In this document: piece by piece, positions 42,396 through 62,442 of the stretch | Layout: each line of letters opens with the position of its first letter | Numbering within the stretch: position 1 is the stretch's first letter | Source of the DNA: Fibrobacter sp. | Lineage (GTDB): Bacteria > Fibrobacterota > Chitinivibrionia > Chitinivibrionales > Chitinispirillaceae | Direction of reading: 5' to 3' | DNA: 64,000 nucleotides | NCBI GenBank assembly: GCA_012513915.1 | Contig: JAAZBG010000054.1 | Span: 58,467 to 122,466, forward strand | The notes under the pieces: generated by a model | What the model was told of the DNA's origin: nothing | The model's input: only the letters and a program-made list of their open reading frames with translations | Databases searched by the model: none | Made by a program: the position numbers and the translations under genes

Positions 42396-43193
42396 TTACT
42401 GCTGTTCCCAGAGTGTTTCGAACAGACTGAGTGATTCATGTAGATCATTCTGACTGAATATTTCAAGTGTCACAACACCATTATAGTGCATCGATGCCAG
42501 TAGCCTTACAAAACGCAAAAGGACATCCTTATTCCCCTTATGTAAAGAGACATGATCTTTTCCGTCACATACACCATGAAGATGTACCACTCTGGTATCC
42601 GGGAGCATTTTTGCACAGATTTCTTCCCAGTTGTTATCGCCCCTTATCCACAAATGGCCGACATCAAGACAGTACTTACAATTACTCTTTTTGACGATGT
42701 CAAAATTCCATTCGGCTGGATAGGACAAATTTTCAATGACTAACCTTGATGAATCCCCCACTTTTTCTGCCAACAGTCTTATAGTGTCAAGACATCGTTC
42801 CTGCCAGTGCACTATCTGTTCCGGAGATGCATCGCTATTAATTCCCTCACAGTGAAGTACCCATGCACGGGGCTCCAGTATACTTGTACGCTCTACGATG
42901 TTTATTGCAGTCTCACAAAAGCGTTTTCGTTCTGCAGGATTATCTGATCCGGCTTTTCTATCGATAGGAAGATGAACTGTATACCCGCATTCGTTTTGCA
43001 CCGCATAATCTCTGAACTGTTCAACCAGTGAAACTGACGGGATATTTGAAAAATCCGGAGATTCAAAAAGTACAAGTTCGATGTCATCAACAAGCGGGGT
43101 CAGATACACCACATTTGGTAAAATATCATCAGGCAGGATATACGATGTCGTTCCTAATCTGAAAGGATATTTTTTTCGTTTATAGCTATTCAT
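42396..43193 (-). CDS. CbiR-like cobamide-remodelling phosphodiesterase (AP-endonuclease-2-like TIM barrel)
   Basis: RLGTTSYILPDDILPNVVYLTPLVDDIELVLFES, YTVHLPIDRKAG, LVIENLSYP, CLDVGHLW, VVHLHGV; last gene of a riboswitch-led btu operon. Confidence 0.72.
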   Translation of the reverse strand: MNSYKRKKYPFRLGTTSYILPDDILPNVVYLTPLVDDIELVLFESPDFSNIPSVSLVEQFRDYAVQNECGYTVHLPIDRKAGSDNPAERKRFCETAINIVERTSILEPRAWVLHCEGINSDASPEQIVHWQERCLDTIRLLAEKVGDSSRLVIENLSYPAEWNFDIVKKSNCKYCLDVGHLWIRGDNNWEEICAKMLPDTRVVHLHGVCDGKDHVSLHKGNKDVLLRFVRLLASMHYNGVVTLEIFSQNDLHESLSLFETLWEQQ

Positions 43194-43240
43194 AATGTAA
43201 ACTTTTAATCTACCTTTATTTAACTGGAATTGAGAGCGTA

Positions 43241-44227
43241 TTATACCATTAGTTTTTTTCTTCTTTTAAATAACAAAATCAAAAAAAACGGTCCGCCGAT
43301 AATTGATGTTATGATCCCGACAGGAATCTCCGTTGGTGGTGTGACAGAGCGTGCGATGGTATCGGTAATTACAAGAAACGTACCACCGGTGAGAAATGAT
43401 GTATACGCAAGCATCTTATGTTTTACACCGGGGAGAATCATTCTGCATGCATGAGGCCCAAGTATACCGACAAACCCAATCGGTCCGCAAATGGCGACAA
43501 TTATACCTATTATCAGGGCCGTTACAGTAATAAACAGTATCCGGCTTTTCTGTATGTTGATACCGCGGGAATGAGCAATGCTGTCTCCAGTTAAAAAGTG
43601 ATCAAGTTGTGTCATAACAGGAATTGCAACAACCATAAATATAAAAACCGGTATTCCGATTATACCAAGCATCTGGTAGTTCATACTGTCAACACTTCCC
43701 ATAATCCAGCGGACTATCTGAAAAGACTGATGCACCCCGGAAATAAAATGGATAAACATAATAAGCCCGGAACAGAGTGTTGCCACGATAACTCCGGCAA
43801 GCAGAAGCGTACTGGAATTGGAATCACGGGACCATGCGAACACATATATCAGTAATACCGACATTAGTGCACCTGTGAATGCACCGGCAATAACTATCGG
43901 CAGTCCAAGAACCACACCCCCTACCCCGGTATAAATGCAGATTGCAGCCCCCAGTGATGCACCGCTTGACACACCGAGGGTATAGGGATCAGCGAGCGGA
44001 TTCCTGAAAAGTGCCTGATACACCATACCGCATACAGCCAGTGCACCGCCGGCACACATGGCTACCAATGTTCTTGGAATTCGTATCTGTGTAAATATAT
44101 ACCTGATATTTTCATCGTTGATAATACTTCCTAAACTGAATGTATGAATTCCGAAAAAGGGACACAGTATAATTGACATAACAGCAACAACGGTAATACC
44201 TGCCACAATGAGAATTCTATGCTTCAT
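43241..44227 (-). CDS. Cobalamin-type ABC transporter permease (FecCD family, BtuC-like)
   Basis: RIPRTLVAMCAGGALAVCGMVYQALFRNPLADPYTLGVSSGASLGA; GPIGFVGILGPHACRMILPGVKHK. Confidence 0.92.
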   Translation of the reverse strand: MKHRILIVAGITVVAVMSIILCPFFGIHTFSLGSIINDENIRYIFTQIRIPRTLVAMCAGGALAVCGMVYQALFRNPLADPYTLGVSSGASLGAAICIYTGVGGVVLGLPIVIAGAFTGALMSVLLIYVFAWSRDSNSSTLLLAGVIVATLCSGLIMFIHFISGVHQSFQIVRWIMGSVDSMNYQMLGIIGIPVFIFMVVAIPVMTQLDHFLTGDSIAHSRGINIQKSRILFITVTALIIGIIVAICGPIGFVGILGPHACRMILPGVKHKMLAYTSFLTGGTFLVITDTIARSVTPPTEIPVGIITSIIGGPFFLILLFKRRKKLMV

Positions 44228-44233
44228 GAAAAC

Positions 44234-45055
44234 TTACTCCTCCCATGATCCGAAAACATCGAACCCATCATTGACACACCGATACCTCCTGAATTGAATC
44301 GAAAATATTTCAGTTAATATCCCGGGGCATTGGGTACGAAACTCACTGCTTTTTCCGGTGTAATAAAGTACCCCGTCACGAATTACTGCAACATGTGAAC
44401 AGCGATAAATTGCACTATTGATATCATGAGTTACCATTACAACGGTCAACGCAGCACGAGTGTTCAATCTGTCAAGGGCATTGAAAAACAGTTTGTCATG
44501 CGCCGGATCAAGGTATGTCGTTGGTTCGTCAAGAAGCAGAATCGGTGATTCCTGCGCAACCGCTCCCGCAAGTAAAACCCTTTGAAGTTCACCACCGCTC
44601 AGAGAATAGACATACCGTTCTTTCAACTTGTAAACATCACAAATACCAAGGGCGTCATCAACAACAGACTGATCATGTTTATCAGGAATTCCAAGCACGC
44701 TCATTCTGCAAAAACGTCCGAGCATAACATAGTCATTTACCGTATAGGGAATTGCATTTTCAGGTTTTTGGGGAACATAGGCAATAAGTGATGCCCGTTT
44801 TCGTGATGAATAGTGTTTTACCGGTTTATTGTTAACGCGAACAACCCCATCAGTTTGGGGAATCATGCCGGCGATTATTTTGATAAGTGATGATTTCCCG
44901 GCACCATTTGGACCGATAATAGCCCAGTGTTCATTCGCCCTGATATCAAATGACAGCTGTTTTAGAATTTCCCGGCCAGACAATTTCAGGGTAATGTTAT
45001 CAATTGCAATTGCGGTATCGTTTAGGTGCATAAAATTTCCATTTTCAGATCTCAA
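44234..45055 (-). CDS. Cobalamin-type ABC transporter ATP-binding protein (BtuD-like)
   Basis: Walker A GPNGAGKSSLIK, signature LSGGELQRVLLAGAVAQ, Walker B ILLLDEPTTYLDP. Confidence 0.92.
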   Translation of the reverse strand: MRSENGNFMHLNDTAIAIDNITLKLSGREILKQLSFDIRANEHWAIIGPNGAGKSSLIKIIAGMIPQTDGVVRVNNKPVKHYSSRKRASLIAYVPQKPENAIPYTVNDYVMLGRFCRMSVLGIPDKHDQSVVDDALGICDVYKLKERYVYSLSGGELQRVLLAGAVAQESPILLLDEPTTYLDPAHDKLFFNALDRLNTRAALTVVMVTHDINSAIYRCSHVAVIRDGVLYYTGKSSEFRTQCPGILTEIFSIQFRRYRCVNDGFDVFGSWEE

Positions 45056-45069
45056 TTGACAACAACTAA

Positions 45070-45975
45070 TCAGGATTTGCTGCTACTACTTCTAATTATT
45101 TCCTTAAGGTCCTCAATAAGAAGCAATATGCGAGGTCCTGGTACCGTTGCATATCCTTTGTCTATACAAAATATATTGTTTTGCTCAACAGCTTTAACAT
45201 TTTTCATAGCCAGCCAATCTCTAATGAGATCAGAACAATTGTAGTTACTCATAGCAGATGCGATATCGATAATAATGTCAGGATTGCAATACATAATACC
45301 CTCAGGGGATAACTTCGGGTATTGCGGCAGTGAATCATTAAATGCATTTATCCCTCCCGCAGCTTCAATAATTTCATTATAAATCGTACTCTTTCCCGCT
45401 AAGTAAACACTCCGTATCGCTCCTTCACCGGGATTTGCTCTTCCAACACAAAGCATTACTGATGGTCGCGGACCATTTAAACCAGAATCAAATTGATTGA
45501 TACTTTCTTTAAATTTCGCAACCAGCGAAATAGCAGAACTGTCAACACTACATGCTTTACCAATTCGTAAAAAAGACTCCTGCGTTGAATCGAGGGATGA
45601 GTAATTGACTGTTAACACATTGATACCCGCACGCTGAAGATACTCTTTTTGTACAATGTGTTCAGCTGTGCCAATTACAAGGTCAGCTCTCAGTGATACA
45701 ATTTTTTCAAGGTTTGCATCAGCGTAACCGCCAATTTTTTCAATTGTCAATGCAGAATCAGGATATTTGCAATAGGTAGTAACGCCGACCACTTTGCTGC
45801 CAAGTCCGAAAGCAAAAAGTGTTTCTGTAATACTTGGTGCGAGCGAGATGATTCTCTGTGGTGTTACAGAGGTTGTCATGGATGCGGGTTTAGTATTGCA
45901 GGTATTCACTACAATCGCAGCAATAACCACAACAAGTTGAATCAATCCTTTTACCTGCACATCAACCTCCCGCAC
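45070..45975 (-). CDS. Cobalamin-type ABC substrate-binding protein (BtuF-like)
   Basis: RIISLAPSITETLFAFGLGSKVVGVTTYCKYPDSA..KIGGYADANLEKIVSLRADLVI; N-terminal hydrophobic segment. Confidence 0.9.
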   Translation of the reverse strand: MREVDVQVKGLIQLVVVIAAIVVNTCNTKPASMTTSVTPQRIISLAPSITETLFAFGLGSKVVGVTTYCKYPDSALTIEKIGGYADANLEKIVSLRADLVIGTAEHIVQKEYLQRAGINVLTVNYSSLDSTQESFLRIGKACSVDSSAISLVAKFKESINQFDSGLNGPRPSVMLCVGRANPGEGAIRSVYLAGKSTIYNEIIEAAGGINAFNDSLPQYPKLSPEGIMYCNPDIIIDIASAMSNYNCSDLIRDWLAMKNVKAVEQNNIFCIDKGYATVPGPRILLLIEDLKEIIRSSSSKS

Positions 45976-46001
45976 TATTAAATGTATACAATTATCTGTG
46001 C

Positions 46002-47102
46002 TTATTCATTAATAATTGCAATACTTGATGGTATAAGTGTTCTTGATGTTTTAATAACCGGGCCCTGAAGAATATTATTCTTAAACACTTTGATTCCCAT
46101 ATTAAGCGAATCACATTCTCCGACATAGAGCGTGTTATTCTTTTTGTCATAACAAATACCACCGAATGCATCATTTACATCAGGTACAACAGCTACAATG
46201 TTCCCTGTCGAAAAATCTATTTCTTTTACATGCACATTATGATACGTCACGTAAACAGTCACATAAAAGATATCACCATTCTTGTGTTGAACATTATATG
46301 GACATCCACCAAGGCCTTCAGCGGTGATAACAGTCGTTACGCTTTTATCTGATAACTTTACAGCTTCAATTCCTGCATCACCGGCAGCCGCGGAATAACT
46401 TCCAGTATTCATTACATATAGATAGCCATTATTGCAGATTATTTTATTTCCATTTTTATATACAGTCGAAACAGTGTCCTCAATTTCGTTTGTCAACATA
46501 TTGATCTTTAAGATTAGTGATGGAATTTTATATGTATAACCATCCCGTCTCTGAAGCAACACATACAAATAATTCCCATCGATTTCAAGTGAACTTGCGT
46601 GGGGTGATGTGTTTCGATCCTTCATGTACGTATATTTAGAAATATCAATAGTTCCAGTTTTTGTAAGCGTCAACGGGTTAAATAGTGTAATAGCAGGTTT
46701 ATTCTGATTTGCAATAAATGCTTTTGTATCCGATAAAAAGGCGATGTCCTGCGGATTTGAACCCTCAGCAGAATCGGTTTTCATCTGATTAACCAATCCA
46801 TTTTTACCATTTTTTGATGGGTCATACTTTATAATATTATCTGCCCCAAATCTTTCAATAATATAAACATCTTTTTTATATGTTTTTACCATTGCATCAT
46901 GAAAAACTGGAAATCCTGTATTTTCTATTGCCTGTTTTTTAATACTTATCCACTCAAAATACCCTGACTGATTTAATCTTTGTGTGAAAAAAACCTTTGG
47001 TTCATCACTTGCTTCATTTTCAACAGGGCTTACTACACATTGCAATACAAGAACAATTAACATCAAAACCAGGCCGATACAGGCAATATTCTTTTTAATC
47101 AT
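46002..47102 (-). CDS. Beta-propeller lipoprotein in a cobamide operon (BtuG-like candidate)
   Basis: From internal Met: MIKKNIACIGLVLMLIVLVLQCVVSP (signal peptide with lipobox VLQC) and YncE/quinoprotein-like repeats (NPQDIAFLSDTKAFIANQNKPAITLFNPLTLTKTGTIDIS). The ORF track start is 47162. Confidence 0.65.
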   Translation of the reverse strand: MIKKNIACIGLVLMLIVLVLQCVVSPVENEASDEPKVFFTQRLNQSGYFEWISIKKQAIENTGFPVFHDAMVKTYKKDVYIIERFGADNIIKYDPSKNGKNGLVNQMKTDSAEGSNPQDIAFLSDTKAFIANQNKPAITLFNPLTLTKTGTIDISKYTYMKDRNTSPHASSLEIDGNYLYVLLQRRDGYTYKIPSLILKINMLTNEIEDTVSTVYKNGNKIICNNGYLYVMNTGSYSAAAGDAGIEAVKLSDKSVTTVITAEGLGGCPYNVQHKNGDIFYVTVYVTYHNVHVKEIDFSTGNIVAVVPDVNDAFGGICYDKKNNTLYVGECDSLNMGIKVFKNNILQGPVIKTSRTLIPSSIAIINE

Positions 47103-47161
47103 TTCAATACCCTTTTTTTGTGCAGGTTGTACAATACCCTGAATAGCATTATTTTTATCCA

Positions 47162-49420
47162 TTATATTTTAATGCGCAAATAAAAATTCCATTCATTCTG
47201 TGGAAATACAGTCCATGAATAATTACTCTCCTGTGTTCCTGAAATCAACGTTTCATATCTGATTACATCAGTTGTTAAATTGCTTATTGAAAAACCGGTT
47301 GTAATGTTTTTTGCTACTTTAATTGACATGTTTACATTGTGAAACAACGATCCCACTTCTTTTTCATTTGCCGGTACACGTAAAACATTTCCATCGTCAC
47401 GATAATATACCGTTTTAAATTCAAGCGAATAATTAAGTGTAAATCTTTTATGAATACTTAATTCGGTTCCTCCCGAAATTGTAAAATCAGGTTCATTCGG
47501 GAGCAATCTGCCATATTGATTATAATCAGTTGATACATTTCTTGCCTGTTGCCATGTTCCTGATATATCAAGTTTCAGAAACTGCCAGGGATAATATATC
47601 GATGACAGCTCAACTCCCTTTGTCAATGTCCTGCCAATATTGACCGGCTTACTCATTTTACCGTCATTATGAAAAACGATTCCATTTTTTATCGATTGCA
47701 TGAAAAAAATTGATTCAAGTTTTAAACGCAGTTTTTTAAATCTCAACCCGGCTTCAAAAACATTACCGTCTTCATTTTGTAAATCAGGATTTGGTATCAC
47801 GGCTCCATTAAAACCATATCGTTCACGTAATGAAGGTACCGCCATATACTTCGCACCATTAATAAAAATTCTGCCATACTCTGCAATCCCGCAATAGATA
47901 CCGCCAGCCATTGACCATGGATAATCAATTTCATCAGACCTCTTAACGACCTCTGAAAGCACAGTATTGTTTCCACCATCAGTTTCGCTTCTGGATAATT
48001 TACCAGCCAAAGAGATATGAGCTCCGGGATGAAAAACTCCACTCTGAAAATTCCAATCTGCATCACCAGCCAATGAAACTTCCTGTGAACTTCCGGGCCA
48101 GTCATTTCCTGTTATAATACTGTTAGTTTCAGTGTTTGTAAGTATTTTTGAATAATTTGCAGAGGCTGTTATGTCTGATGTCAACCCCGGGAGTATTCTG
48201 ATTTTAGATTGAATTGACATATTAATATTGTGAAGATCCGAACCTAATCTGCAGTATGAATCATGGAACATAACCATATTTCCATGTGCAGCGCCCATGC
48301 TTGAATCAAGACTTGTATAGAAGACTGAATTGCCGGTATATCCATAACCTATTTTTTTTGTAAAGGATACTTTTTTTAACGAGTCTATGCGATGATCAAG
48401 AGATGATAGTGTAAAAAGAGCAATAGACTCCTTTGCTTTAGCAGTCTTGTTGACAGAGCCTTCTGTTCCAGGTATTCCTGTTGCTGATGATGTTATACTG
48501 GCAGATAGCTGAAGTACTTTATCATTTGGTAATTCAATAGACGGAATAATCGAGATGGCGATTTTCTGATGTTCATGATTTCTTACTGTTGCAATAGTAT
48601 CATCTGATGTAATCACAGATGTTTTATTTCTATCAAAATATTTCCAGTCATTGTGACTTGACGTATAACTTACAGCACTAAACAATCTTATTCCATCTTT
48701 CACAGAGCTGTTAAGTTGAAGTGTAGCTTTACGATAGCCATAAGCACCAAAAGAGACACCGATACCTGATGCATTACCTTTCAGATGCTTCTTACTCGTT
48801 ATAGCTATCACACCGCCTAAAGAATTTCCACCATACGATGATGGTACTATTCCTTTGTATACTTTTATTTCATCCACATTTTCCAATTCAATTAATCCGA
48901 GGTCAACTGCGCCACCCATTGCAGAATTCAAATGAACTCCGTCAAGAAACACCTGAACTTCTTTCCCGTCAACACCTCGTATTGATACCGTCTGCAAGCT
49001 GCCTTCACCGCCATATTTTCTTGTTTGTACACCTGGTATATCAGCAATTACATCCGCAAGATTCTTACGCGTATCAATCCATTTTTCCGGCTTGATAATC
49101 GTCAACGACTGATTTGAATTAAATTCACGTTCCGCAACGGCATCAACATACACTTTGTCAAGTTTTACAAATTGAACATCAGCAGTACCCGGTTTTGATG
49201 ATTTTACCGTATCAACACATAATGGCTGTTCATAATGCATTAATGAATCTGTGATACTTGTGGCATCGTAAATGGTATCATTTACAAAAGTTAACGTATG
49301 CTTTTGTACAAGCGGCACGGAGAGAGTATCACCAGAGGATATACTATCACCTAAAGTTTTACAAATAAATCCACAGGTAACCCATGCAATGAGCACAATA
49401 GAGAAACTAAAACTATTCAT
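47162..49420 (-). CDS. TonB-dependent outer-membrane receptor (BtuB-like)
   Basis: Plug: TRKNLADVIADIPGVQTRKYGGEGSLQTVSIRGVDGKEVQVFLDGVHLN...IKVYKGIVPSSYGGNSLGGVIAITSKK; downstream of a cobalamin riboswitch. Confidence 0.9.
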   Translation of the reverse strand: MNSFSFSIVLIAWVTCGFICKTLGDSISSGDTLSVPLVQKHTLTFVNDTIYDATSITDSLMHYEQPLCVDTVKSSKPGTADVQFVKLDKVYVDAVAEREFNSNQSLTIIKPEKWIDTRKNLADVIADIPGVQTRKYGGEGSLQTVSIRGVDGKEVQVFLDGVHLNSAMGGAVDLGLIELENVDEIKVYKGIVPSSYGGNSLGGVIAITSKKHLKGNASGIGVSFGAYGYRKATLQLNSSVKDGIRLFSAVSYTSSHNDWKYFDRNKTSVITSDDTIATVRNHEHQKIAISIIPSIELPNDKVLQLSASITSSATGIPGTEGSVNKTAKAKESIALFTLSSLDHRIDSLKKVSFTKKIGYGYTGNSVFYTSLDSSMGAAHGNMVMFHDSYCRLGSDLHNINMSIQSKIRILPGLTSDITASANYSKILTNTETNSIITGNDWPGSSQEVSLAGDADWNFQSGVFHPGAHISLAGKLSRSETDGGNNTVLSEVVKRSDEIDYPWSMAGGIYCGIAEYGRIFINGAKYMAVPSLRERYGFNGAVIPNPDLQNEDGNVFEAGLRFKKLRLKLESIFFMQSIKNGIVFHNDGKMSKPVNIGRTLTKGVELSSIYYPWQFLKLDISGTWQQARNVSTDYNQYGRLLPNEPDFTISGGTELSIHKRFTLNYSLEFKTVYYRDDGNVLRVPANEKEVGSLFHNVNMSIKVAKNITTGFSISNLTTDVIRYETLISGTQESNYSWTVFPQNEWNFYLRIKI

Positions 49421-49464
49421 GTTCGAAGAATTCCCTGAACCCTGTTTCCTGAGGATTCAAAAGT

Positions 49465-49645
49465 GTGTACGATTCAGGCAGGTTTCCTGGCTTTCCCGAT
49501 CTTGCCGCCTTCCCATCCGCACCGTTAGTGGACAGTGGCCTGGATTGGCAATACCCTGATTATTTACAATCAGTTAAGGGATTCACAGTGGCAGGTCCGC
49601 TTGGGCATCACACCCATATTCCCTGGCTCCTGAATTAAATTTTGA
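49465..49645 (-). ncRNA. Cobalamin (B12) riboswitch
   Basis: Minus strand: B12 box AGCCAGGAAACCTGCCT (complement of about 49476-49493), GGAAGGCGGCAAG, GCGGACCTGCCACTG, and a 5' arm GGAGCCAGGGAATATGGGTGTGATGCCC. Confidence 0.93.
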
Positions 49646-49684
49646 TGGTATAAGATAGATTGTTGTTAGGAAAAAGGCAAGAAG

Positions 49685-49790
49685 AAGTGACGAGTGACGA
49701 GTGACGAGTGACAAGTGACGTGTATTTCCACTTTCCACTTTCCACTTTCCACTTTCCACTTGCTACTTGCTACTTGCTACACCGAACATA
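49685..49790. repeat. Compound heptanucleotide tandem repeats: (AGTGACG)n, (TTTCCAC)n, (TTGCTAC)n
   Basis: AAGTGACGAGTGACGAGTGACGAGTGACAAGTGACG, then about five TTTCCAC units, then about three TTGCTAC units. Confidence 0.93.
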
Positions 49791-62331: not shown

Positions 62332-62442
62332 AGTGACGAGTAGCCAGTAGCCAGTAGCCAGTAGCCAGTAGCCAGTAGCCAGTAGCCAGTGTAGCCAGTA
62401 GCCAGTGTAGCCAGTAGCCAGTGTAGCCAATAGCCAACAGCC
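62332..62442. repeat. Heptanucleotide tandem array (AGTAGCC)n with interspersed AGTGTAGCC units
   Basis: AGTGACGAGTAGCCAGTAGCC... with interspersed CAGTGTAGCC, degrading to AATAGCCAACAGCC. Confidence 0.95.

Follow-up and report, generated by a model that had tools for sequence, protein, structure and literature searches.

How does a bacterium capture corrinoids, bring them into the cell and remodel them to the cobamide that it prefers, and how would it do so without destroying its own cobamide? The question is raised by a 64,000-nucleotide stretch of DNA from Fibrobacter sp. (assembly GCA_012513915.1, contig JAAZBG010000054.1, positions 58,467 to 122,466 of the forward strand), referred to here as the window. 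At positions 42396-49648 of the window, a cobalamin riboswitch stands before six genes, which encode a BtuB-like TonB-dependent receptor, a BtuG-like lipoprotein, the three subunits of a BtuFCD-type importer and CbiR, a predicted cobamide-remodelling enzyme. In Bacteroides, BtuG binds vitamin B12 with femtomolar affinity (PMC6143338). How cells keep CbiR from destroying their own cobamide was left open by the authors of the CbiR study (PMC7733943).

We read the locus, with a probability of roughly 0.8, as a cobalamin-repressed operon for high-affinity corrinoid capture, import and remodelling in a Chitinispirillaceae-type member of the Fibrobacterota. The parts are of known kinds; what is new is that a divergent BtuG clade extends across the Fibrobacterota and that it is combined with CbiR behind a single riboswitch. 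A phylum-wide BtuG-like family would extend the rule for how anaerobic bacteria compete for B12, and it would offer a diverged binding protein to study. Additionally, with importer and CbiR encoded in a single operon under a cobalamin riboswitch, one answer to the own-cobamide question can be tested directly.

A riboswitch-headed unit for probable corrinoid uptake

The six open reading frames (ORFs) run on the minus strand from 49420 down to 42396, closely packed behind a single riboswitch. Their positions, and that of the riboswitch, were given in the original prediction, an earlier reading of the sequence letters, and were confirmed against the ORF list and the RF00174 match. The first gene encodes the receptor (752 aa; 47162-49420) and the second a seven-bladed propeller lipoprotein (46002-47102). 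These are followed by a btuF-type periplasmic binding protein (45070-45975), a btuD-type ABC ATPase (44234-45055), a btuC-type permease (43241-44227) and cbiR, a predicted cobamide-remodelling phosphodiesterase (42396-43193). The intergenic distances are, in order, -1, 26, 14, 6 and 47 nt, and from this spacing we infer that the six genes are co-transcribed. A pattern scan gave no terminator-like site in any intergenic gap of the operon; such sites number 4, against 4.5 in shuffled sequences, and consensus promoter matches were not enriched over shuffles in the same scan.

The riboswitch aptamer (RF00174, minus strand, 49460-49648) was matched by cmscan over its full length, model positions 1-189, with a score of 61.5 bits (E 8.6e-13), the gathering threshold being 31.5. 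No other Rfam match occurs in the window. The aptamer is one of five cobalamin riboswitches in the whole genome, and it ends 39 nt 5' of the first gene. Between the aptamer and the btuB-like start, a hairpin without a U-run (49436-49459), whose 8-bp stem UGAAUCCU/AGGGUUCA was taken from the minimum-free-energy fold, is a candidate expression platform. The riboswitch may plausibly act on translation, because a Shine-Dalgarno-like AGGGA starts at the 3' edge of this hairpin, 12-16 nt 5' of the ATG. Directly 5' of the riboswitch, at the expected promoter site, three 7-base tandem-repeat arrays abut one another (AGTGACG, TTTCCAC and ACTTGCT units, 49686-49780).

The receptor carries the Pfam domains Plug (6.8e-20) and TonB_dep_Rec, the barrel (1.3e-19). 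Its matches in the PDB include several BtuB chains (3e-13), the best match being a generic TonB receptor, and the name BtuB-like is given to it by context. All three importer subunits carry the expected family domains, namely Peripla_BP_2 in the btuF-type protein (5.9e-25), which has a lipobox-like sequence at its N-terminus, ABC_tran in the btuD-type ATPase encoded between btuF and btuC (3.8e-30), and FecCD in the permease (2.2e-79). The riboswitch, the gene order and these domains together support the riboswitch-controlled uptake that had been proposed for the locus. Inside the B12 uptake operons of two relatives, a gene for a Dph6-like ATP pyrophosphatase (PF01902) recurs (L081, 12534-13205; L092, 12968-13663).

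A BtuG-like lipoprotein and its distribution

The product of the second gene had earlier been described as a surface-lipoprotein candidate. Its description as a lipoprotein stands, with a lipobox cysteine at ORF residue 42 that is invariant in the family alignment; the likeness to BtuG had gone unrecognised. The protein probably starts at 47102 instead of the listed 47162, and it has no Pfam or NCBIfam family match. A single-sequence search of the PDB gave three weak matches, all of them Bacteroides BtuG. A profile built from 28 relatives matched BtuG at E 1.6e-9, and its nine best matches were all BtuG. The AlphaFold2 model is a seven-bladed propeller with a predicted local distance difference test (pLDDT) score of 92. 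When this model was compared with the PDB by Foldseek, 14 BtuG chains ranked at the top, with template modelling (TM) scores of 0.72-0.79 and E-values of 2.5e-16 to 1e-13, and the next fold followed at 9e-11.

In Bacteroides BtuG2, the residues Trp194, Trp272 and Tyr316 narrow the cavity for the upper ligand (PMC10404256). Trp194 and Trp272 were located on the profile alignment by residue counting, and every one of the 28 sequences has Tyr, Trp or Phe in the Trp194 column, which corresponds to window ORF residue 209. The protein is predicted to bind corrinoids, presumably exposed at the cell surface.

Of 101 related Fibrobacterota genomes, 98 encode a homologue of the lipoprotein. We read 36 loci, selected solely by their BtuG-like gene; riboswitch, receptor and BtuG-like gene stand together in 33 of them, and the other three stop at a contig edge. 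A cobalamin riboswitch is present at every locus with intact upstream sequence (33/33). In 32 loci it lies about 2 to 2.5 kb 5' of the BtuG-like gene, leaving space for one receptor gene, and at the G041 locus it lies 5' of a cbiR-cobUTS-receptor run.

These results bear on a different identity for the receptor and the propeller lipoprotein, that of an XusAB-like pair for siderophore or heme, whose association with the riboswitch would not reflect the ligand. XusB of Bacteroides, a propeller lipoprotein that binds siderophores, does appear among the folds ranked next for the window model (E 3e-10, TM up to 0.72), and it ranks 3-7 in the fold search with the Fibrobacter member of the family, which is 26% identical to the window protein; the generic best match of the receptor fits such a pair as well. 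However, the window protein matches BtuG about five orders of magnitude more strongly, and BtuG ranks first for the Fibrobacter member too, with XusB close behind. The constant presence of the cobalamin riboswitch, and the many genomes in which btuFCD, cbiR and cobUTS share the locus of the BtuG-like gene, likewise speak for a corrinoid ligand, and we regard an XusAB-like pair as very unlikely.

Beyond the Fibrobacterota, two Fermentibacteria genomes hold a BtuG-like homologue beside a cobalamin riboswitch, with a receptor-like neighbour in the one that was read at length. Among 33 whole genomes of other phyla, one was positive for a BtuG-like gene, and this is a Fermentibacteria genome. In the Chlorobium phylum, taken here as Bacteroidota, 35 of 148 genomes gave profile matches, several of them beside receptor-like genes; because these matches are weak, sequence alone cannot firmly join the two BtuG clades. 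BtuG homologues had been reported as exclusive to Bacteroidetes, based on BlastP at 1e-10 over 313 gut genomes (PMC6143338). No paper naming both BtuG and Fibrobacter was found in the literature searched.

Some variants of the arrangement were also seen. A second riboswitch-receptor-BtuG pair lies on contig C156 of the window genome (L008, 4704-8362); its BtuG-like protein is 48% identical to that of the window, and the pair is divergent from a riboswitch-headed cbiM-cbiQ and adjoins MetH-like genes. In two relatives, the propeller of the BtuG-like protein is preceded by about 180 additional N-terminal residues (L013, 880-2472; L016, 874-2478). In Fermentibacteria locus L209 (7577-8953), the BtuG-like gene is 5' of the receptor gene, in reversed order, behind a strong cobalamin riboswitch. 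A 972-aa ORF in G088 (L110) that had the appearance of a receptor-BtuG fusion was rejected, being a wrong-frame run through GC-rich DNA, inside which the real BtuG-like protein starts.

CbiR and its genomic neighbours

The product of the last gene scores 240.1 bits against the NCBIfam equivalog NF041277 (CbiR), whose cutoff is 105. This confirms at the equivalog level the CbiR-like call that had been made for it, and rules out an unrelated sugar isomerase, which had been named as the alternative. The residues H74, H114, E154, D177, H180, H204, D213, H214 and E244 are invariant in an alignment of 14 Fibrobacterota CbiR proteins. We take these His, Asp and Glu residues to be metal ligands, as in the AP endonuclease 2 superfamily, their roles being drawn from knowledge of endonuclease IV and from PMC7733943. 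The conversion of adenosylcobalamin (AdoCbl) to adenosylcobinamide-phosphate (AdoCbi-P) was shown for the CbiR of Akkermansia (PMC7733943), and by analogy the window CbiR is predicted to catalyze the same hydrolysis.

CbiR scores above the cutoff in 14 of 168 Fibrobacterota genomes. In 11 of these 14, the window genome counted, cbiR and uptake genes form a series on the same strand. In all 13 of the other carriers, cbiR adjoins cobU, cobT or cobS; in the window genome it is linked to the uptake genes and does not adjoin cobUTS. In other phyla too, cbiR is found beside BtuCD and cobUTS, and transporter neighbours have been reported for 25% of cbiR homologues (PMC7733943). The link between importer and CbiR is already known; a BtuG-like gene in that unit is seen in the Fibrobacterota only. 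Among 80 CbiR loci scanned by hidden Markov model, BtuG-like matches were obtained at six, all in the Fibrobacterota, and at none outside the phylum. CbiR fragments, one with a stop, occur on two contigs that bear BtuG-like genes (G032:C58:21596-21814 and G027:C215:57800-57973) and look like decaying cbiR copies.

Predicted corrinoid synthesis and rebuilding in the same genome

A salvage lifestyle had been thought plausible from the window, and this was not borne out by the whole genome, in which cobS, cobT, cobU and de novo cbi genes are present. Contig C3 holds, in one run, cbiC, a small CbiX-like chelatase gene, cbiD, cbiE, cbiL, cbiF, cbiG, cbiH and cbiJ. Contig C205 holds cobD, cbiB and btuR, and contig C156 holds cbiM, cbiQ and a cbiO/cbiA reading frame behind a riboswitch. 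The genes cobU-cobT-cobS lie on contig C46, behind their own cobalamin riboswitch. CbiT was not identified in the genome. The 5,6-dimethylbenzimidazole (DMB) synthase BluB did not score above the cutoff in the genome. Judged from these genes, the anaerobic corrin pathway looks near-complete, and the organism appears to be a producer that would also import and remodel. In a further run, on contig C200 (L009, 2638-16382), a TonB receptor, an ABC importer, a 1325-aa CobN-type chelatase, a ChlI-like AAA protein, a VWA protein and TonB-like genes stand together, and a cobalamin riboswitch lies where the contig ends; the run may represent a chelatase uptake cluster of the cobalt/heme type.

The assembly consists of 341 contigs with a listed contamination of 7.99%, and de novo synthesis is seldom seen in the phylum, with CbiD found in 5 of 168 Fibrobacterota genomes and in 3 of the 14 CbiR carriers. 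Both facts would suit an organism that is truly a salvager, with cbi genes contributed by a contaminant. However, the tetranucleotide correlation of contig C3 with the window is 0.894, compared with 0.897 for pieces of the window with each other; of eight sampled relatives, seven give 0.47-0.77 and one 0.88. Moreover, the CbiD carriers include two genera of the same family. It is thus highly improbable that the cbi genes come from a contaminant. For the rest of the Fibrobacterota, salvage does look like the rule.

The presence of cobU, cobT and cobS makes the remodelling that had been raised as a possibility feasible, remodelling itself being a prediction. CbiR could instead serve another end, by degrading imported cobamides to cobinamide-phosphate as an entry point, or by acting on another cobamide-like substrate, rather than by remodelling to a preferred cobamide. 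The position of cbiR away from cobUTS, unlike that in the 13 other carriers, is in keeping with this, as is the ability of the cell to make corrinoids itself, predicted from its de novo genes. CobU takes AdoCbi-P directly. Given this, salvage of cobinamide-phosphate and remodelling are the same chemistry, and cobUTS is both present and riboswitch-controlled in the window genome. A role for CbiR apart from remodelling is therefore unlikely.

Proposed mechanism and points against it

In the proposed mechanism, low intracellular adenosylcobamide would cause the riboswitch to permit expression of the operon. The BtuG-like lipoprotein would capture corrinoid at the cell surface and pass it to its partner TonB receptor, and BtuF with BtuCD would carry it into the cytoplasm. 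Acting on foreign cobamides, CbiR would cleave their phosphoribosyl bond and yield AdoCbi-P. From this, a cobamide with the preferred lower ligand would be rebuilt by CobU, CobT and CobS, whose genes lie elsewhere under another cobalamin riboswitch. Once the cobamide pool is full, the riboswitch would turn off both import and CbiR. This would limit how much of its own cobamide the cell hydrolyses, because CbiR, sharing the riboswitch of the importer, would be made only under starvation.

Several observations weigh against parts of this mechanism. A 47-nt gap lies 5' of cbiR, and directly 5' of this gene is a promoter-like match (43269-43240), of a kind that is no commoner than in shuffled sequences. 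The fold of the riboswitch and leader RNA is no stronger than that of shuffles (z 0.8), and the expression-platform role of the hairpin is therefore put forward as a candidate one. The receptor falls below the NCBIfam BtuB cutoffs (TIGR01779/NF007926; 85 against 599.7 and 76 against 836 bits), and the importer subunits fall below theirs (BtuF 92 against 234, BtuC 194-208 against 334-461, BtuD 130 against 281 bits). Because all four proteins are below their equivalog cutoffs, a corrinoid is predicted as their substrate from the riboswitch and the context. The lipoprotein is about 16% identical to Bacteroides BtuG, and its Trp272 column is non-aromatic in the profile alignment, so that the protein may bind corrinoids differently or no longer bind them. 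A QR motif, invariant in the BtuG-like family described here, is aligned opposite a gap in Bacteroides BtuG. The fold and the context are those of BtuG, with a binding site that has probably diverged, and the protein is called BtuG-like for this reason. Finally, leaky regulation of CbiR might set up a futile cycle in a cell that makes corrinoids de novo.

Taking the loci together, we lean towards the view that BtuG-type capture is not an invention of the Bacteroidota. It would be an old trait, widely shared among the Fibrobacterota, with rumen Fibrobacter among them, and the Fermentibacteria, and its proteins would form a deeply diverged clade that has a corrinoid-binding motif of its own. Some lineages would have placed it under the same riboswitch as CbiR. 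Capture, import and remodelling would then be turned off as one, which would spare the cell's own cobamide from hydrolysis.

Comparison with known systems

The BtuB-BtuG loci of Bacteroides (PMC6143338, PMC10404256) share with the window the cobalamin riboswitch, a BtuB-type receptor beside a seven-bladed propeller lipoprotein, and BtuFCD in the same unit, and the predicted fold of the window lipoprotein is closest to BtuG. In contrast to the Bacteroides proteins, the window lipoprotein belongs to another phylum, has the low identity given above and does not conserve W272. The QR motif that is invariant in the window family is missing from Bacteroides BtuG, cbiR is part of the window operon, and no BtuH gene was seen in the window system.

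The CbiR locus of Akkermansia (PMC7733943) encodes a CbiR of the same NCBIfam equivalog, and its linkage to cobUTS is found again in relatives of the window genome. Unlike in Akkermansia, cbiR in the window closes an uptake operon that also has a BtuG-like lipoprotein and one riboswitch. The window genome also holds de novo synthesis genes, as do some A. muciniphila strains. Escherichia coli, with btuB, btuCD and btuF, has the outer-membrane receptor, the periplasmic binding protein, the ABC importer and the cobalamin riboswitch in common with the window; the surface lipoprotein and CbiR are in the window system only, and the window genes form one unit.

Other features of the window

Elsewhere in the window, about 13 copies of the unit AGTAGCC form a tandem array at 62339-62436.

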